Below, piece after piece: positions 53,824 through 63,230 of a DNA stretch of 64,000 nucleotides. The notes under the pieces are model-generated. The model had not been told where the DNA came from. It made no database searches and saw only the letters and a list, made by a program, of their open reading frames with translations. A program made the translations under genes and the position numbers. Location of the stretch: NCBI GenBank assembly GCA_007751475.1, contig CP036434.1, positions 4,717,524-4,781,523 on the forward strand, read 5' to 3'. The DNA is from Saltatorellus ferox. GTDB lineage: Bacteria > Planctomycetota > UBA1135 > GCA-002686595. Numbering within the stretch: position 1 is the stretch's first letter; each line of letters begins with the position of its first letter.

Positions 53824-54039
53824 GGGGGCTCCAGGATCACGGCCCCCTCTTCCGGTGGACTTGGAGGGTCCGGGGTAGGTCTGCAGAGAAACGATCACTG
53901 ACCCCAGCGGTCCCACACAGGAAAGCCCGATTCCTGGCTCGTCAAAAAAGTTGGAGAGTTCCCTGTGGTTTCCCACGACGCTTCGCGCGTCCCCCACGCG
54001 GGCTCTTGCCTTCCCGCCCCCCGTGCCCCCCCTCCCCCC

Positions 54040-54576
54040 ATGCCCGACGCCCCCTCGACCTCCAGCGAGCCTCCCGACGAACTCATGCAGCTCGTCTACG
54101 GAGAGCTGCGGCAACTGGCGTCGGCCTACCTTGCGCGTGAGCGCTCCGACCACACCCTCCAGCCCACCGCGCTGGTGCACGAGGCCTTCGTCAAGCTGTC
54201 CCCCCAGAAGAAGCGCTGGGAGAACCGCTCCCAGTTCATCGGCGTCGCCGCCGTCGCCATGCGACGCATCCTCGTGGACTACGCCCGGAAGCACCGTAGC
54301 GAGAAGCGCGGCGGTGGCGCGCGCCGGGTTGAGCTCGATCTCGCCACCATGGAAACGACCGAAGGCGCCATCGATCTCGTGCGCATGGACGAGGCCCTGA
54401 CCGGACTGGCCAAACTCTCTGCCCGCCAGGCCCAGGTGGTCGAGCTCCGCTTCTTCGGCGGACTCACCAACGATGAGATCGCCGAGGTCCTGGCCGTTTC
54501 CTACCGTACCGTCGAGAACGACTGGCGCTTCGCGCGCGCCTGGCTGAAGGAGCAGCTCGGCGAGGGTCCCGGGTGA
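54040..54576 (+). CDS. ECF-like sigma factor of the TIGR02999 type
   Basis: The ATG at 54040 gives 178 residues. It has the signature of the sigma subfamily found beside serine/threonine kinases in planctomycetes and acidobacteria: LVYGELRQLASAYLARER at the start, HTLQPTALVHEAFVKL, FIGVAAVAMRRILVDYAR, and the region 4 LRFFGGLTNDEIAEVLAVS with YRTVENDWRFARAWL. The stop overlaps the start of the kinase gene by 4 bases, so the pair is coupled. Region 4 binding sites cannot be read here. A GTG at 53965 would extend it by 25 Pro-rich residues and is less likely. Confidence 0.93.
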   Translation: MPDAPSTSSEPPDELMQLVYGELRQLASAYLARERSDHTLQPTALVHEAFVKLSPQKKRWENRSQFIGVAAVAMRRILVDYARKHRSEKRGGGARRVELDLATMETTEGAIDLVRMDEALTGLAKLSARQAQVVELRFFGGLTNDEIAEVLAVSYRTVENDWRFARAWLKEQLGEGPG

Positions 54577-57437
54577 GCACCATGGACGAGCAACAGCACG
54601 AGCGTCTCAGCGCTCTCTTCGTAGAAGCGAGCGCCCTGAAAGACGACGAGCGCGAGGCGTTCCTGCAGCGGAGCGCCGGTGAGGATGAGGAGCTACTCGC
54701 TGCGCTCCGCCGCCTGCTCGCGCACGACGGTGATCCGACGGGCGCCATCGACCGCCCGGTGGTCCTTGCGCTGAACCAGGCCGTGAGCGCCGCCATGGAC
54801 ACGGCCGCCGATACCGAGGGCGAAGTGCCAGCGATCCCTTTGCCGGAGCGCATCGGCGCCTATCGAATCGTGGGGCTCCTGGGCCGCGGCGGCATGGGCG
54901 TCGTCTACCTGGCCGAGCAGGACACGCCCCACCGCCGCGTTGCGCTGAAGGTGCTGCGCCCGGACGTCGTGACGCCCGACATGCTCCGCCGCTTCGAGCA
55001 CGAAACCCACGTGCTGGCGCGCCTCAATCACCCCGGCATCGCGCAGATCTACGAGGCAGGTACCGCCATGACCGGCGCGGGAGAGCAGCCCTTCCTCGCC
55101 ATGGAACTCGTTCCAGGCGTCTCGGTCACCAGCTACGTCGAGGAGCATCGCCTGAACATCGACGCGCGCCTCAAGCTCGTGGCCGCCATCGCCGATGCCG
55201 TTCACCATGCCCACCAGCGAGGCGTGGTGCACCGTGACCTCAAGCCCGCCAACGTGCTCGTCGATCAGGCCGGGCACCCCAAAGTCCTGGACTTCGGAGT
55301 CGCCACGACCCTCGACGCAAGCAGCCACGTCTCGACGATGCACACGAGCATCGGCGAGGTCGTCGGCACGCTCTCCTACATGAGCCCGGAGCAGGTGAAC
55401 GGCCGCTCCAGCGAAGTGGACGCGCGCTCCGACGTCTACGCGCTTGGCGTGCTCGCGCACGAGCTCCTGGTGGGCGTGCCGCCCTTCGACCTGCGCGGCA
55501 AGCTGATCCACGAGGCCGCGCGTATCGTCACGGAGGACGAGCCTTCGACGCTTGGAGCGCGAAACGCGGCGCTGCGCGGTGACGTCGAATGGATCGTCGG
55601 CAAGGCGCTCGAGAAAGAGCCCTTCAGGCGCTACGCCTCGGCGGATGCCTTCGCCTCGGATGTGCGGCGGCATCTGGCGCATGAACCGGTCACCGCGCGG
55701 GCTCCCGGCGTGCTGTATCAGGCGGGCAAGTTTGCGCGGCGCCACCGCGCATTCGTGGGCGGTCTCGTCGCGACGCTTCTGGCACTCGTCGCGGGCCTGA
55801 TCGTCAGCACCCGTCTCTACTTCGAGTCAGTTCGTCGCGGCGAAGAGCTGCTCCGAGCGCTCGCCAAGGAGAAGGCCGCTCTGGAGGAGTCCGAATCCGT
55901 CACCACGTTCATGAGCGACGTGCTGGAAGCCGCGTCGCCCGAAAGAGAGGACAGCGAGCTCACCGTGCGAGAGCTCCTGGACCGGGCAGCGCCAGGTATC
56001 GAACAAGACTTCGCAGGCTCGGCCCGGGTGGCAGCGCGCCTGCACGCCACGGTGGCGACCTCCTACGAGGCGCTCGGAGTCCTCGAAACCGCGCTCTACC
56101 ATGCGGATCGCGCGTTCGCCCTGATGGCGACAGGCGAAGAGTTCAGTACGGGGCAGATCGGAAGGGTGCGGCAGCTCCACGGAGGCCTCCTGACGAGGGC
56201 AGGTCGGTTCGACGAGGCTGACGTCACCCTGAAGGCCGGGCTGGAGGTCGAGGAGGATCCCGAGCAGCGTGCGCGCTTTTTGGTTGCGCTGGCACGCACG
56301 GAGAAGGGCCGCGGGCAGATGAACGACGCCATGGCGTACCTGGACGAGGCCATGGAGATCGTTCGCCGCCACGATCTCGACGAAGCCTCGGAGATGCAGG
56401 TCCGCAGCCAGCTCGCCATCGTGCAGGCTCGAATGGGCAGGCTCACCGAGGCCCGCGACCATTTCGAGGACATCCTCCACTTCAACGTCACGAAGTGGGG
56501 CAGCGACCATCCCATCGCGCTGGAGTCCCGCCACAATCTCGCGACCGCACTCTCCATGCTCGGCGAGCACGAGCGCGTGCTGGACCTCGACCTCGAGATC
56601 CTGGCCTCGCGCAGACGCAGGCTAGGCGACGATCATCCCTCCACGATCACGACGATTCACTCGATCGGGGAAGGCCTTGCGCAGATGGAGCGCTTTGACG
56701 AGGCTCTCCCCTACCTGAAGGATGCCGTCGATGCCCGGAAGGCCGCGCTTGGCGCGACTCACCTGGAAACGCTGGTCTCGATCGGCGGACTGGCGCGCTG
56801 CCTTGGTCATCTCGGCCGGCACGCCGAGGCGCGGGCGCTCTACGACGACGCCCTGGAGACCGCTATCGGATCCATTGGCGAAGCCCACTGGGTGACCGTG
56901 ATGCTGCTGGACAACAGCGGCGCCACACTGGCGGCCCTCGGAGAATTCGACGAGGCGGTCGATCGCCACCGGCGCGCCGCCGAGACAGCCAAGCTCAGCC
57001 TCGGTCCCGTGAACCGGATGACGCTGATTGCGCTGACGCAGCTGGGCAGCACGCTGGACGAAGCGCTCCGGCCTGCGGACGCAATCGAAGTCTGCGAGGA
57101 GGCGCTCGCCATGGCGGCCGAGCCGGCGGTCAAAGGGCAGGTCTCCATGGCCAGCACCACGGAGCGATTGATGCAGCTGTACCTGAAGGCCAATCCGGAG
57201 TCTCTGCGCGATTTCGAGCGCGCGGCAGAGCTGGGCGAAGCGCTCAAAGCTCGGTCCGAGCTCAACCCGCCAGGCTGGGTGCTGCTCGCCAACGCCTACG
57301 CCGAGCTCAACCGCCTGCCCGAAGCGATCGAGGCGGCCGAGCGGGCGACCGAGACGTACGCGACAGACCATGTCGACCGACCCGGCGTCTTGGCGTACAT
57401 CGAAAGACTCCGCTCCATTCAGTCCAAGTCGCGCTGA
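54573..57437 (+). CDS. membrane serine/threonine protein kinase with TPR sensor domain
   Basis: The GTG at 54573 (or ATG at 54582) gives 954 residues. The kinase domain spans about 90-370 and shows all key motifs: LLGRGGMGVVYLAE (ATP loop), VALKVLRPD (Lys), VVHRDLKPANVL (catalytic loop), VLDFGV (DFG), YMSPEQ (APE). A membrane helix follows at ~395-415 (FVGGLVATLLALVAGLIVS), then a coiled segment and about 500 residues of tetratricopeptide repeats, such as ARLHATVATSYEALGVLETA and ALPYLKDAVDARKAALGATH. The N-terminal ~75 residues form a small helical domain. Coupled to a sigma gene, it may phosphorylate regulators in response to outer signals. Confidence 0.95.
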   Translation: MSTMDEQQHERLSALFVEASALKDDEREAFLQRSAGEDEELLAALRRLLAHDGDPTGAIDRPVVLALNQAVSAAMDTAADTEGEVPAIPLPERIGAYRIVGLLGRGGMGVVYLAEQDTPHRRVALKVLRPDVVTPDMLRRFEHETHVLARLNHPGIAQIYEAGTAMTGAGEQPFLAMELVPGVSVTSYVEEHRLNIDARLKLVAAIADAVHHAHQRGVVHRDLKPANVLVDQAGHPKVLDFGVATTLDASSHVSTMHTSIGEVVGTLSYMSPEQVNGRSSEVDARSDVYALGVLAHELLVGVPPFDLRGKLIHEAARIVTEDEPSTLGARNAALRGDVEWIVGKALEKEPFRRYASADAFASDVRRHLAHEPVTARAPGVLYQAGKFARRHRAFVGGLVATLLALVAGLIVSTRLYFESVRRGEELLRALAKEKAALEESESVTTFMSDVLEAASPEREDSELTVRELLDRAAPGIEQDFAGSARVAARLHATVATSYEALGVLETALYHADRAFALMATGEEFSTGQIGRVRQLHGGLLTRAGRFDEADVTLKAGLEVEEDPEQRARFLVALARTEKGRGQMNDAMAYLDEAMEIVRRHDLDEASEMQVRSQLAIVQARMGRLTEARDHFEDILHFNVTKWGSDHPIALESRHNLATALSMLGEHERVLDLDLEILASRRRRLGDDHPSTITTIHSIGEGLAQMERFDEALPYLKDAVDARKAALGATHLETLVSIGGLARCLGHLGRHAEARALYDDALETAIGSIGEAHWVTVMLLDNSGATLAALGEFDEAVDRHRRAAETAKLSLGPVNRMTLIALTQLGSTLDEALRPADAIEVCEEALAMAAEPAVKGQVSMASTTERLMQLYLKANPESLRDFERAAELGEALKARSELNPPGWVLLANAYAELNRLPEAIEAAERATETYATDHVDRPGVLAYIERLRSIQSKSR

Positions 57438-57681: not shown

Positions 57682-58047
57682 CTACTCCCCAACGACGGCC
57701 CCGTACCCTGCGTTGACCAGCGCGGCGATCAACTCAGCGGGAGTGGTATCCGCCGCGTCGTAGTCGACCACCAGGCGGCCCGTCTGGAAGTTGAGCTCGC
57801 TCCCCTCCACACCCCTCACACGCTCCAGAGCTCGGTCAACACGGACCGAGCACCAGAGGCCTCAGTGAAGTCCATCGACCTCCAGGACGATGCGCGCCGG
57901 CTTCTCCGGCGGCGCCTCGTATCGCGATAGACCCAACGCGGTCGCCAGCGCCGCGGCCACTGCCATTGTGATCCAGAACGGACGGCTGGCGCGTGACTGG
58001 GCTTGGTACCCGCGCTTCCTGCGCTCAACTGAGTATGGGTGGTTCAC
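57682..58047 (-). CDS. membrane-anchored HMA-domain protein, predicted selenoprotein (Sec62)
   Basis: A GTG at 58047, overlapping the stop of the LarA-like gene by 4 bases (GTGA), opens a frame with a membrane helix at residues 24-41 (FWITMAVAAALATALGL) and the first strand of an HMA domain, ARIVLEVDGLH. The next codon is TGA at 57864-57862. The same frame continues for 59 codons to TAG at 57682 and encodes the rest of a perfect HMA fold: GLWCSVRVDRALERVRGVEG, LNFQTGRLVVDYDA, TTPAELIAALVNAGYGAVV. The TGA falls at the first Cys of the metal-binding GMxCxxC loop (here GLH-U-GLWC). A SECIS-like hairpin starts right after it. The protein is 121 residues with Sec. If read as stop, only a 61-residue anchor is made. 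Confidence 0.8.
57823..57858 (-). promoter_or_regulatory. SECIS-like hairpin after in-frame TGA
   Basis: On the minus strand, counting the U of UGA as 1, bases 7-21 pair with 28-42: eight perfect pairs next to the loop (GCUCGGUC/GACCGAGC), one U-U mismatch, then six more pairs including two G-U. The apical loop is CGUGUU, starting 18 bases after UGA, with G23-U24 in it. This fits the bacterial SECIS rules (loop G in the first two positions, UGA-loop distance 16-37), and the G23-U24 position is that of the well-known fdhF element. Confidence 0.75.
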
Positions 58048-59369
58048 TTCAAGAGCAGGGGGTACGCAGCCGCGTCGCGGCTGTGACCGGGCGCGAAGGG
58101 GATCACATACGGCCCCTCCGGGATCACGGCGATCATGGGGTCGCCCTGGCGTGCGATGCTGTCCGATATCGCCGTCTCGAGCGAGTCCGCCAGCGTCACT
58201 CCGGTCAAGGCGCGCTCTTTCTCGGACAGCCCGGTACTATAGAGCGTGATCCGCGCGCGTGATTGTGGCCGCGTCTGCATCTGGGTTTGCCATTCGTCGA
58301 TCGACGCGTGGCTCTTGGCGGCAATCGCATCGAGGAACGCGTCCATGCCGCCCGCGATATAGCGCCGCTGGGCCTCGGCGAACTCTGGCGATCCCAGGCC
58401 CTCGGAGCACTCCGAGGCGATGATCAAGTCGCCTCCCTCCTCGAGGATATCGAGCGGCCCCACCATGCCCTTGATCGTCTGATAGTAGGTCGCATCCAGT
58501 GGATACCCGGCTGCGCTGGTGAGCACGGTTCGAAAGCGGCGCGGGAGCCGGACCTCCGCGTAGTCCCGGACAAACTCCACCGCCAGCAGATGGCTCTCGA
58601 TGATCTCTCCGAAGCTCACGAAGGCGAGGCGACGGCGATCGTCGATCACCGTGTTCAGAGCGAGCGCGCCACCTAGCATCTTGACGATGGCGATCAGCTC
58701 CTCGTGGAGCGGGTTGCCCTCCAGCCGGCAATTCGTCGCTGCTGGGTCGGACATGAACCGGTGATTGTGGAAGGTGGTGATCGTTTCGGCGTGGGCGATC
58801 CCCGGTGCGATCACCTTGCGGCCGCCGGAGTAGCCCGCCATCAGGTGCGGCTCCACGAGGCCCGTCGCTATGCGTACGTCTGCCTCGACGAAGCGTCGAT
58901 CGAGGCGGACCACGGTCCCGCGCGGCGTGGTGCCCACTCGCACATGGCCCGCGTCGTCGCGAGCGAAGTGATTCACGACCGACACCTGATCCAGCACCCA
59001 GGGGTCACCGATGAGCTCGGCGAGTTCATCTCCTTCGTTGGGCCGGTGCAGGCCGGTCGCCACGAGCACGGTGATGCCTTGGCGTGGAACTCCCGCGCCG
59101 AGGAGGCGTTCGATCAACGGACGCAGGAACAGGCCGTTAGGGACAGGACGGGTGATGTCACAGACGAGAATGCAGGCGGTCTTCGCTGCACTCGCCAGCG
59201 CTTCCATCCCGGGCGCACCGACGGGGCGATCGAGGGCGCCCTCGATCAGCGCGACGGGATCCTCGGGGATCGGCATGCTCGGCTTCTCGACGAGCGTCGG
59301 CTGGCAGCCTTCTGGAAGGGTGATGCGGAGGGGCTGACGGCCGTAGAGGAGTTGAACTTCAGCTGGCAT
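58044..59369 (-). CDS. LarA-family (DUF2088) nickel-pincer racemase-like protein
   Basis: The 441-residue product follows lactate racemase LarA in its key elements: ILVCDITRPVPN (family DxTRP), VATGLHRP, FARDDAGHV, GLVEPHLMAGYSGGRK with the Lys that tethers the nickel pincer cofactor, and FHNHRFM. LarA homologues racemise or epimerise alpha-hydroxy acids; substrate identity varies widely among homologues, so lactate is not certain. The cofactor is made by LarB, LarC and LarE, none of which is in the window. The stop overlaps the GTG start of the HMA protein gene by 4 bases, so the two are coupled. Confidence 0.9.
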   Translation of the reverse strand: MPAEVQLLYGRQPLRITLPEGCQPTLVEKPSMPIPEDPVALIEGALDRPVGAPGMEALASAAKTACILVCDITRPVPNGLFLRPLIERLLGAGVPRQGITVLVATGLHRPNEGDELAELIGDPWVLDQVSVVNHFARDDAGHVRVGTTPRGTVVRLDRRFVEADVRIATGLVEPHLMAGYSGGRKVIAPGIAHAETITTFHNHRFMSDPAATNCRLEGNPLHEELIAIVKMLGGALALNTVIDDRRRLAFVSFGEIIESHLLAVEFVRDYAEVRLPRRFRTVLTSAAGYPLDATYYQTIKGMVGPLDILEEGGDLIIASECSEGLGSPEFAEAQRRYIAGGMDAFLDAIAAKSHASIDEWQTQMQTRPQSRARITLYSTGLSEKERALTGVTLADSLETAISDSIARQGDPMIAVIPEGPYVIPFAPGHSRDAAAYPLLLK

Positions 59370-59765: not shown

Positions 59766-60200
59766 TCAGACGATCTCGTCGAGTCGGCTGATGGCGTCGT
59801 GGGTCCTCAACTGGGCCGGCAACAACCTGGTCGCCACCATCTCGCGCGCAGCGGTTCCAAGGTCCGTGAGGTCTCGCTCATAGTCCTTCAGGCCGTGCTC
59901 CTCGCCTTGCTTCAACGCGGCGACCGCGGCCGACGTCCCGAATACCTTCGCGCCGCCCTCCACCGCCTTGGCGAAAGCACCCCAGACACCGCTGCCGTCC
60001 GAGGGCTGGCCACCCAATCCGGTGATTTCCTGGCGGAGAAGCTGAACGCGCTCGGCGTGGTCATCGCGACAACCCGTGAGCGTGGCGATGATCGCCACGT
60101 CGTCCGCGCTCTCGATTGCCTGGTCGAAGGTCTCCACGGCTGAAATCTCGCCGCGTAGAAATGAGTTGAGCTGTTCGATGTCCTGTGCGGTCGTGGTCAT
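59766..60200 (-). CDS. DUF2383 four-helix protein
   Basis: The 144-residue product is the length of PA2169-like DUF2383 proteins and has their layout: IEQLNSFLRGEISAVETFDQ, then helices with DDHAERVQLLRQEITGLGGQ, and the terminal RLLPAQLRTHDAISRL. The fold is a ferritin-like four-helix bundle, often found in stress loci with catalases and DUF892 proteins, as here. Biochemical role unknown. It stands 160 bases from katE, on the same strand. Confidence 0.87.
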   Translation of the reverse strand: MTTTAQDIEQLNSFLRGEISAVETFDQAIESADDVAIIATLTGCRDDHAERVQLLRQEITGLGGQPSDGSGVWGAFAKAVEGGAKVFGTSAAVAALKQGEEHGLKDYERDLTDLGTAAREMVATRLLPAQLRTHDAISRLDEIV

Positions 60201-60360
60201 GACTGTCGAGGCGACTGGCCCCGCTGGGTGGTGGAGGAAAAACTGGACGTGGAAGTGAGCGCAGCGCTTTGGAGACGCTGTCGGTCATGCGCTCCACCAC
60301 AAGGAATGCGTCTCACCCCCACGTCAACAGTGCCTTAATTTCGGTTTAGCCGATCCAGGA

Positions 60361-62490
60361 TCACCGGACGGCTGGCTCCCGGTCCCAGCAACGATGCTGG
60401 CTCGCCTCCTCGACGAACGTCTTCACCGCCTTGTTCGACAGCTCGACCAGGCCGTCGTCCTCGGCGGCAAACCGCTCAATATTGGCTCGCTCGAGGATCG
60501 TGACGATCTCCGGCGTGTAACCGATGACCTTGAGATGCGCGAAGGCGTCGCGAACCCAGTCCACCGAAGCGGAGAGCGATAGAAGTTCTTCGACCTCGTC
60601 CGGTCCCGGGATCAGCACCACGGCATCGAAGACAGCGGACGGAGCGCCCGCGAGGAAGTGGTCGACCTCGAGGCTCGTGCCGTCATCGAGCGCCACAGGA
60701 GCGGGGCGCACGGCGACCGTCGCGAGCTGGCCCCCGGCCGCCTTCACGGCCTTTTTGAGGGCCCTGAAGAGCCGTGAGGGCGCTCCGTCGGTCACGAGCA
60801 CGCCTACCTTTTTCCCGCCGAGATCACCCTTGACCGCTCGGTACTGCGATAGGGCCGGTGACGGCTCTATATCCCTGGGCTCCACCGCCGGCCTGGCGGG
60901 CCTGATCTTCCCCTCGAGGCCGAGCTTCTCCGCAACCGACTTCGCGAGGTCCGGGTCCACCACCATGAGGTGCCCGACCATGCGCTCGCGAATCTCCTGC
61001 CTCTGCACCTTTCCGAGCTCGAAGGAGAAGCCGCCGATGATGTGACGTTGCTCGGGTTCGGTCATCGAATGCCAGAATTGACGCGCCTGGGTGTAGTGAT
61101 CCGCGAAGCTTTCCGGACGAATGCGAAGCTTCTGGCCGAACTCTTCCGCGGGGTAGCTCTGGAAGCCGCGCTTGGGGTCCTCGCGAGGTCCGCCGTCGTC
61201 GAGACTGTTGGGCTCATAGGCGACTCGAGTGGCCTGGGCCCCCGTCTGCATGTGCCCGTCTCGCTGGAAGTTGCCGACCGGACACCGCGGCTTGTTGACC
61301 GGGATCTGGTGAAAGTTAGGGCTTCCCAGGCGCGAAAGCTGGGTGTCCAGGTAGGAGAAGAGACGACCCTGGAGGAGGGGATCGTTGGAGAGATCGATGC
61401 CAGGAACCACGTGCGATGGGCAGAAGGCGACCTGCTCCGTCTCGGCAAAGAAGTTGTCGACGTTCCGATTCAGCACCATCTTGCCGAGCGGCCGCAGCGG
61501 CACGAGTTCTTCGGGTACCAGCTTGGTGGGATCCAGCACATCGAAGTCGAAGGCGTCAGCCTCTTCCTCGCTGAACGCCTGCACCGACAGCTCCCACTCC
61601 GGGTAATCGCCGTCCTCGATCGCATTCCAGAGATCGCGGCGATGGAAGTCCGGATCGGCGCCTGCGATTGCCAGAGCCTCGTCCCAGATCAGGGAGACGG
61701 CGCCCAGCTTGGGGCGCCAGTGGAACTTCACGAACGTGGACTTCCCGGACTTGTTGATGAGGCGGAACGTGTGCACGCCGAAGCCGTCCATCATCCGGAA
61801 CGACCTTGGAATGGCGCGGTCGCTCATCACCCACATCAGCATGTTCACCGATTCGGGGGTAAGCGAAACGAAGTCCCAGAAGCTGTCGTGGGCTGACTGG
61901 GCCTGTGGGAAGCCGCGATCGGGTGCAGGCTTCACCGAGTGGATCAGGTCCGGGAACTTGATCGCGTCCTGGATGAAGAAGACGGGGATGTTGTTTCCGA
62001 CGAGATCGTAGTTGCCTTCGGTCGTGTAAAACTTGACGGCAAAGCCTCGCACGTCGCGCGCGGTGTCGGGGGATCCCTTGCTCCCCGCGACCGTCGAGAA
62101 GCGAACGAATACATCCGTCTTCACGCCAGGCTGCAAGAAGGCTGCCTTGGTCAGCGGCGCATTTTTTCCGTAGGCCTCGAAGTACCCGTGCGCCGCGTAG
62201 CCGCGAGCGTGCACCGCACGCTCCGGAATGCGCTCATGGTCGAAGTGCGTGATCTTCTCACGCATGAAGGAGTCTTCGATCAACTGCGGCCCGCGGGGCC
62301 CTACCGTCAGGGTGTTCTGATGGTCGGCGATGGGTACGCCTTGGTTCGATGTGAGGACTTCACCCGTGGTGGTCTGGTGGGGCTCACCGCCCTCGCCCAC
62401 TTGCATCTTGGCCGCGGCCTGTCGGCCCGTGCTCCGGGACTTCTTGCTTCTTGCGTTCTCGCGGGTGTTCTTCTTGGGTGCGTTCGCCAT
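60361..62490 (-). CDS. katE: large-subunit catalase (HPII type)
   Basis: The ATG at 62490 gives 709 residues, close to the 753 of HPII. A Lys/Arg-rich N-terminus precedes the catalase core: active-site His in [14 protein letters not shown], Asn in [11 protein letters not shown], and the haem-ligand Tyr in [37 protein letters not shown] completes the core. After residue 550 comes the flavodoxin/DJ-1-like C-terminal domain of large catalases ([29 protein letters not shown]). It breaks down hydrogen peroxide in the cytoplasm. Its neighbours DUF2383 and DUF892 suggest a general stress regulon; a GTG/ATG start farther upstream (62571) adds basic text and is less likely. Confidence 0.96.
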
Positions 62491-62697
62491 GATCGAGGTG
62501 CTGTTCTCCGGGAAGTGACCTACTCGCGCCCCGCCCCGAACGTTCGAGGGCAGGAGCCGGTAGAGCTTCACTCTTCCCTTGGAGTTCAGAGAAACCTAAA
62601 AACGGCGTGGACTGTGGAAGCAGACGTCGCGGGAGCAGCCTGCGGTCGGTGCCCTGCTGCTTCGTCCGCGAGCCAAATCTCTCCTCGCAACGCGATC

Positions 62698-62731
62698 ACC
62701 CGCCTACCGACCTTCCGTCAGGTAGGCGGGT
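62698..62731 (-). terminator. hairpin downstream of the DUF892 gene
   Basis: ACCCGCCTACC (62698-62708) and GGTAGGCGGGT (62721-62731) are 11-bp perfect arms around a 12-base loop, starting 10 bases after the DUF892 stop on the minus strand. No T-run follows, so this is a probable but unproven terminator. Confidence 0.6.
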
Positions 62732-62741
62732 CGGGATCGGA

Positions 62742-63230
62742 TCAGGCGACCGCTGCGTCCTTGTTGATCGAGGAGGCGAGCTTGGTCAACTTCTTGTCGG
62801 TCGACTCCTCTTCGTCGAGGATCGCGCCGATCAACTTCTTGACGTCGGTCAGATCGAGCACCTCCGCCCACTGACACATGGTCCCGTAGGTGGCGATCTC
62901 GTAGTGCTCGACCTTCTGCGCGGCGGCGATCAGGAGAGCGTCCCGAACGCAGCCTGCGTCGTTCTCTTCGATGATTTCTTCACCTTCTTCGATGAGGCCC
63001 TTGATGGCCTCGCAGGTCTTGGCCCTCGGCTTCAGGTCCAGAAGCCCGAACACCTTCTCGAGCTGCTCGACCTGTGTGATGGTCTCTTTCGCATGGCCCT
63101 CGAAGGCTGCGGTCAGTTCATCGTTCTCTGCGGCTTTTGCCATCTTGGGAATGGCCTTGGTGAGCTGTTTCTCAGCGAAGTAGATGTCTCGGAGGAGGTC
63201 AACGAATGCGGAATGAAGATTCTGTGCCAT
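62742..63230 (-). CDS. DUF892 (YciE/YciF-like) ferritin-like protein
   Basis: The 162-residue product has the length and motifs of the family: LLRDIYFAEKQLTKAIPKM near the start, AFEGHAKETITQVEQLEKVF, CEAIKGLIEEGEEIIEE, and QKVEHYEIATYGTMC with the metal-binding Glu and His. DUF892 proteins form diiron four-helix bundles and are induced by osmotic or oxidative stress. Position beside katE and DUF2383 supports a stress role. It is followed by a hairpin and preceded by decayed DNA. Confidence 0.93.
   Translation of the reverse strand: MAQNLHSAFVDLLRDIYFAEKQLTKAIPKMAKAAENDELTAAFEGHAKETITQVEQLEKVFGLLDLKPRAKTCEAIKGLIEEGEEIIEENDAGCVRDALLIAAAQKVEHYEIATYGTMCQWAEVLDLTDVKKLIGAILDEEESTDKKLTKLASSINKDAAVA

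Follow-up and report, generated by a model that had tools for sequence, protein, structure and literature searches.

A predicted selenocysteine-containing, membrane-anchored heavy-metal-associated protein in Saltatorellus ferox and its planctomycete relatives

The window (the whole 64,000-nucleotide stretch of Saltatorellus ferox DNA that was analyzed) contains a short minus-strand gene whose frame is crossed by a single TGA. The initial annotation had read this TGA as selenocysteine (Sec) standing at the first metal-binding Cys of a heavy-metal-associated (HMA) domain, with the following stop 60 codons further on. Both observations held: the TGA is residue 62 of a 121-codon frame, and reading on from it reaches no stop for 60 codons. 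The features of the locus are as follows (window coordinates):

58044–59369, minus strand: LarA-family (lactate-racemase) homologue, the upstream gene, given for context only
57682–58047, minus strand: putative Sec-HMA coding sequence, 121 residues, GTG start at 58047, TAG stop at 57684–57682
57922–57984, minus strand: N-terminal membrane helix, residues 22–42 (predicted helix, pLDDT about 73–75)
57691–57897, minus strand: HMA domain, beta-alpha-beta-beta-alpha-beta, residues 51–119 (profile match and predicted model)
57862–57864, minus strand: in-frame TGA, predicted Sec62 and first metal ligand (Cys-form homologues have a Cys codon here)
57853–57855, minus strand: Trp65, directly before Cys66, invariant in alignment A3
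57850–57852, minus strand: Cys66, putative second metal ligand, invariant in A3
57823–57858, minus strand: predicted SECIS hairpin, 14 bp plus one U-U mismatch
57838–57843, minus strand: hairpin loop CGUGUU, nucleotides (nt) 22–27 counted from the U of UGA

The gene adjoins the LarA homologue, its GTG start overlapping the TGA stop of that gene (GTGA). The LarA assignment comes from matches to PF09861 (184.8 bits) and PF21113 (60.7 bits), with NF033504 at 335.1 bits, below its cut-off of 460. Since TGA terminates neighboring genes such as this one, we rejected a genome-wide use of TGA as a sense codon. Past the TGA the frame keeps the composition of a gene: third-position GC content (GC3) in the 54 codons 3' of TGA62 is 0.81, compared with 0.82 in three genes of the same window. 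Purifying selection over this part was visible but weak, with pN 0.303 and pS 0.492 between the window gene and its homologue in genome G006, and 0.332 and 0.431 for G022; TGA62 is kept in both, at protein identities to the window protein of 49% and 43%, respectively. Elsewhere in the window, a DUF2383 protein, a long catalase and a DUF892 protein lie beyond the LarA homologue on the minus strand (59766–63230), and on the plus strand (53965–57437) the gene for an ECF sigma factor (PF07638) overlaps by 4 bases that of the TPR-repeat protein kinase directly after it.

One HMA domain runs across the TGA, as had been claimed: PF00403 matches residues 54–115 with 44.9 bits (gathering cut-off 24.8). 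An AlphaFold model, computed from 14 window and locus sequences with Sec entered as Cys, had a mean pLDDT of 84.6, with 94–98 for residues 51–120 taken in blocks of ten, and both the model and its PDB matches have the HMA fold. The closest PDB match was oxidized MerP (1osd; E = 1.8e-7, TM-score 0.93 normalized on MerP), and the family profile run against PDB sequences found MerP, CopZ and copper-ATPase domains among its matches. Inspected by eye, the sequence has a basic RRKR segment N-terminal to the hydrophobic helix, and a hydrophobic N-terminal stretch recurs in every row of A3. The metal loop is UxxxC in place of the usual HMA CxxC, with the PF00403 score still above the cut-off; alignment to solved HMA domains shows that the extra loop residue is the Trp. 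Residues 62, 65 and 66 are the sole invariant columns of A3 (14 rows, Sec written as C), so that the three residues between Sec and Cys, already remarked on in the initial annotation, are conserved across the clade and are no local oddity. The only other HMA domain above cut-off in the same genome is in a P-type ATPase-like 901-residue frame containing GVHCAACVWLVE.

We compared 54 homologous stretches: the window protein and 53 from other genomes, drawn from the matches listed and comprising those with an internal TGA (all but G049, which lies outside the 54 rows and also has a TGA at ligand 1) plus Cys-form and CxxC controls. Their loops are 28 UxxxC, seven UxxxU, four UxxC, seven CxxxC and eight CxxC. 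Among these 54 stretches there are 52 TGAs, of which 39 are at ligand 1, seven at ligand 2, and six within three residues of a stretch end, as expected of natural stops; all 46 internal TGAs thus fall on the two ligand positions, and the sole TAA or TAG is the terminal stop of the window gene itself. Other sense codons at residue 62, or further stops in the frame, had been named as signs against a selenoprotein. In all rows read, residue 62 is a TGA or a Cys codon, and no other internal stop occurs.

A family-profile search of the window's order, which covers the same 154 genomes as the class-level search, matched 14 of them at E = 1e-14 or better, and 11 of these 14 carry [U/C]-x-x-W-[C/U] (hereafter Trp-type). 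Five are in Sec form (G000, which is the window genome, G006, G022, G021 and G010, the last with both ligands Sec) and six in Cys form (G053, G071, G113, G105, G153 and G111); the matches in G027 and G081 are other HMA proteins. Outside the order, the matches listed include Trp-type Sec forms in G187, G197, G169 and G303 (Sec at both ligands) and Cys forms in G296 and G322. A larger set of relatives has no Trp and the loop U-x-x-x-C or U-x-x-x-U, many of them lipoprotein-like by eye. One scan of genome contigs gave three loci with a pattern that back-translates Cys and probably cannot match TGA. The proteins at two Trp-type loci, L097 (G169) and L090 (G322), have roughly 100 residues of additional C-terminal sequence past the HMA domain.

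In a tree of 60 rows, built on only 67 columns and with 29 of 57 inner branches unresolved, the 16 Trp-type rows all fall to the same side of a branch whose support of 90/89 does not earn the tool's star. At least three changes between Sec and Cys are needed to account for the well-supported branches, where, for example, G021 (Sec) and G053 (Cys) are sister branches (support 99/94), and G001 and G004 (both Sec) group with G002 (Cys; support 100/98). G071 is absent from the tree because its motif lies outside the pattern used, and G117 is not among the rows read. In the genus to which the window belongs, one lipoprotein-like HMA protein has Sec at L120 (G001) and L117 (G004) and Cys at L131 (G002), at the same residue.

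A search for sel genes had been proposed as a check, and the window genome (7.7 Mb, one contig) does encode SelA (453.5 bits), SelB (318.7), SelD (327) and tRNA-Sec (70.9), all above their cut-offs. Its selD has one in-frame TGA, in ...CAGUAAK, which we take to be SelD's usual Sec site. The selA gene and the TGA-bearing selD are about 1.4 kb apart (L138; G000 C1:4976314-4980077), with selB and tRNA-Sec elsewhere in the genome. All nine Trp-type Sec-form genomes have SelA above cut-off and tRNA-Sec; across all Sec-form genomes the figure is 35 of 38 for each, and across Cys-form genomes seven of 10 for SelA and nine of 10 for tRNA-Sec. As most Cys-form genomes also carry the machinery, this co-occurrence does not discriminate between the forms. 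SelA above cut-off was missing in six of the 48 genomes and tRNA-Sec in four; neither was found in the Sec-form relative G433, whose genome is 79% complete.

The predicted fold just downstream of TGA62 contains the hairpin that the initial annotation had described, with its 14 base pairs, one mismatch and CGUGUU loop. The stem pairs nt 7–21 with 28–42 (U of UGA = 1) and leaves three spacer bases after the TGA, so the earlier statement that it starts 6 bases past the TGA was incorrect; the G-U at positions 23–24 was placed rightly, within a loop spanning nt 22–27. The bacterial SECIS (bSECIS) model has the apical loop about 16–37 nt from the UGA, a range that includes the loop seen here. The folding energy is only modestly unusual (z = -1.5; equal stability was reached by 18 of 200 dinucleotide-shuffled sequences and by 14 of 300 synonymous recodings), and we therefore used a score that rewards structure at the appropriate distance from the TGA. 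The window's value was reached at none of 2065 codon positions in three genes of the window and by 38 of 2000 synonymous recodings, in line with the earlier view that such a hairpin exceeds chance. Three of the 1434 TGA triplets in the window reach this score, and TGA62 alone among them is flanked by open frames of at least 40 codons upstream and at least 50 downstream.

Relatives show the same tendency in part. Over the 54 rows, the mean hairpin z was -0.86 for 39 Sec codons versus +0.07 for 15 Cys codons (one-sided p = 0.0054), where the Cys codons include eight CxxC proteins and the codon usage of three window genes, rough for other genomes, was applied to all rows. The number of recodings (per 2000) reaching the score was 554 in G006, 43 in G022, 76 in G021, 149 in G197, 1851 in G187, 715 in G169, 53 in G303 and 4 in G010 for Trp-type Sec rows, and 432 in G296, 1818 in G322, 1461 in G053, 770 in G113 and 818 in G153 for Cys rows; most Sec rows therefore stand out, although not all. 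A loop starting at nt 22 with CG[U/G]GU is common to the window, G006, G022 and G197; G169 has such a loop at the same position as one of several hairpins, and G021 has AGGU one base later. Pair 16-33 of the hairpin changes on both sides (U-A, G-C, C-G). The eight inner pairs of the window hairpin are kept in full in the window, G006 and G021, and to the extent of seven in G022, G197 and G169, five in G303 and four in G187 and G010; five Cys rows keep 6, 5, 5, 2 and 2. Part of this pairing stems from conserved Val-Arg-Val-Asp codons.

In the UxxxU genes we observed a second hairpin, taken as the best one within nt 34–48. Six of the seven (L092 in G303, L121 in G010, L100 in G173, L105 in G154, L116 in G159 and L124 in G204; the exception is G103) have a UGGA[A/G/U] or GGAU loop that starts at nt 38–39 from the first UGA and some 26 nt past the second, and this may be a SECIS serving the second Sec codon. 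Only in G204 does it outrank all other hairpins, with a tie in G159; its loop sits on conserved Leu-Glu codons; and the single-Sec genes of G169 and G187 also show a hairpin of this type.

The frame, the predicted fold, the TGA at a ligand column, the exchange of Sec and Cys among homologues, the hairpin and the Sec machinery all come from computation. Together, the machinery, the restriction of all 46 internal TGAs to the ligands, the occurrence of a TGA or Cys codon at the column in question, and the hairpin make it very likely that the gene encodes a selenoprotein. UGA62 would be decoded as Sec by ribosomes aided by SelB, tRNA-Sec and the adjoining downstream hairpin. The resulting protein would be a type-II membrane protein with its basic N-terminus inside, one helix, and the HMA domain outside; judged from that N-terminus and the single helix, the domain would face the periplasm.

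As Sec62 and Cys66 stand where MerP has its two Cys ligands, a two-coordinate soft-metal site at these residues is, going by the family, the natural reading. The MerP-like domain would bind a soft metal (Hg2+, Cu+ or Ag+) between them, and such a membrane-tethered trap would pass the metal to a membrane transporter or efflux pump, both the metal and the partner that receives it being surmised. A selenolate is expected to bind soft metals more tightly than a Cys thiolate and to stay deprotonated at lower pH, and from these two properties we derive a metal trap tethered to the membrane in the periplasm. The neighborhood of one Cys homologue points the same way: in G053 it lies, on the same strand, behind genes for an RND adaptor-like protein (67.4 bits, cut-off 94.9), an RND pump of the CusA/CzcA type (695 bits, cut-off 701.45) and a lipoprotein-like protein without a family match. 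This is the single metal link by neighborhood among 13 homologous loci; the window's gene itself follows the LarA homologue. No conserved operon was seen in these 13 loci, where neighboring ORFs were picked by script and family scans cover four neighbor proteins (G053 and G169), so a shared partner could have been missed. Given a selenoprotein, the fold and this pump-associated homologue make a metal-trap role likely. For the explanation as a whole, a selenoprotein acting as a periplasmic soft-metal trap, which we consider the best, we estimate a probability of roughly two in three.

The strongest alternative is a redox selenoprotein, in which a Sec62-Cys66 selenenylsulfide would act on exported proteins or peroxides and metal binding would be an ancestral function since lost. 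Most prokaryotic selenoproteins are thought to function in redox reactions, according to the abstract of PMC9312934; the closest fold is MerP in its oxidized form, and the same strand in G169 carries an MsrA (methionine sulfoxide reductase A) gene (156.2 bits, cut-off 108.1) whose start is about 0.2 kb downstream. However, the entire domain is HMA/MerP in sequence and predicted fold, the Sec-HMA relatives in the catalog entries cited below are named for metal handling, and one Cys homologue follows the CusA-type pump gene. On balance, we regard a redox role as unlikely. It is considerably harder to credit a dual product, in which low selenium would yield a metal-free membrane peptide ending at UGA62 and plentiful selenium the metal-binding form, so that the protein would depend on, or report, the selenium supply. 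Selenium-dependent output is a general property of UGA recoding, and the truncated form would retain the predicted membrane helix, both of which favor this idea. Finally, a true stop, whether in a decaying HMA pseudogene or in a gene for a 61-residue membrane peptide only, is highly improbable and was rejected: ordinary genes here do end in TGA, as the LarA homologue does, and the selection signal downstream is weak, but TGAs are confined to ligand columns and relatives have Cys in place of Sec, quite apart from the gene-like GC3 past the TGA, its retention in the diverged homologues of G006 and G022, and the Sec machinery of the genome.

Returning to the selenoprotein with a metal-trap role, we compared it with known systems. 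That related Sec-HMA proteins might already be catalogued had been anticipated, and passages or tables of PMC13188914, PMC9312934 and PMC2398784 do list such proteins. They include NF041115 (UxxU), given as a "putative mercuric reductase" (PMC13188914, PMC9312934); a Sec E1-E2 cation-transporting ATPase with UxxC, tabulated in PMC13188914; a Sec mercuric transport protein, among the selenoproteins in passages of PMC13188914 and PMC9312934; and a Sec "Mercuric transport protein MerP" from ocean metagenomes, in a table of PMC2398784. No description of a UxxxC or Trp-type Sec-HMA protein was found in the open-licence literature.

In an NCBIfam scan the window protein fell below every cut-off, and none of ten relatives scanned reached the cut-off of any family listed for them. 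The top match of the window protein was NF041115 (UxxU_metal_bind; 43.7 bits, cut-off 95), likewise a small HMA domain with Sec at metal ligands. The window protein departs from it in its three spacer residues, its single Sec, the Trp preceding the second ligand and its membrane anchor. Removing one loop residue raised the NF041115 score in three of three proteins (58.2 to 63.5, 60.4 to 66.4, and 43.7 to 49.7 for the window protein), which is why this model seems to expect a two-residue spacing. MerP (TIGR02052; 42.4 bits, cut-off 92.55) shares the fold, the single HMA domain and two soft-metal ligands; MerP is CxxC and soluble, whereas the window protein is UxxxC and membrane-anchored, and no mer family was found among six window neighbors scanned. 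NF045683 (MerT_CopZ_Se), a MerT/CopZ fusion-like selenoprotein, resembles it, by name, in joining a membrane part to an HMA-like Sec part behind it; the window protein aligns with the final 75 positions of this model (36.3 bits, cut-off 375) and, unlike it, has no MerT part. The Sec E1-E2 ATPase, as it appears in the table entry, similarly places Sec in a metal-transport protein, within U-x-x-C, whereas the window encodes a separate small protein with three residues between the ligands. Judged from its sequence, then, what sets the window protein apart from known Sec-HMA proteins is the three-residue spacing, the Trp before the second ligand, the membrane anchor, and a score below every NCBIfam cut-off.

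The window protein very probably belongs to a little-described planctomycete group of Sec metal-binding proteins. The chances are evenly balanced for a broader proposal: that exported Sec-HMA proteins whose U-x-x-x-(C/U) loop is one residue longer than usual for HMA form a large, so far undescribed group in Planctomycetota. The group would occur in two forms (membrane-anchored with Trp before the second ligand, and small and lipoprotein-like without Trp), would include members with Sec at both ligands, would have switched between Sec and Cys several times, and would serve periplasmic, selenol-based capture of soft metals. The best-known role of selenocysteine is in redox catalysis; in these exported proteins it would act as a metal ligand. 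The scaffold occurs naturally in Sec, Cys and double-Sec versions, a ready comparison for the role of selenium in metal binding. If this is right, annotation that treats TGA as a stop would truncate such genes, and their products would score low against a curated model built on two-residue spacing. Finally, we noted a different architecture at L125 (G231 C94:30244-30465, minus strand), an 854-residue frame with the HMA motif GMTUGGC near its start that is, by its sequence, likely a P-type ATPase with Sec in the HMA domain.
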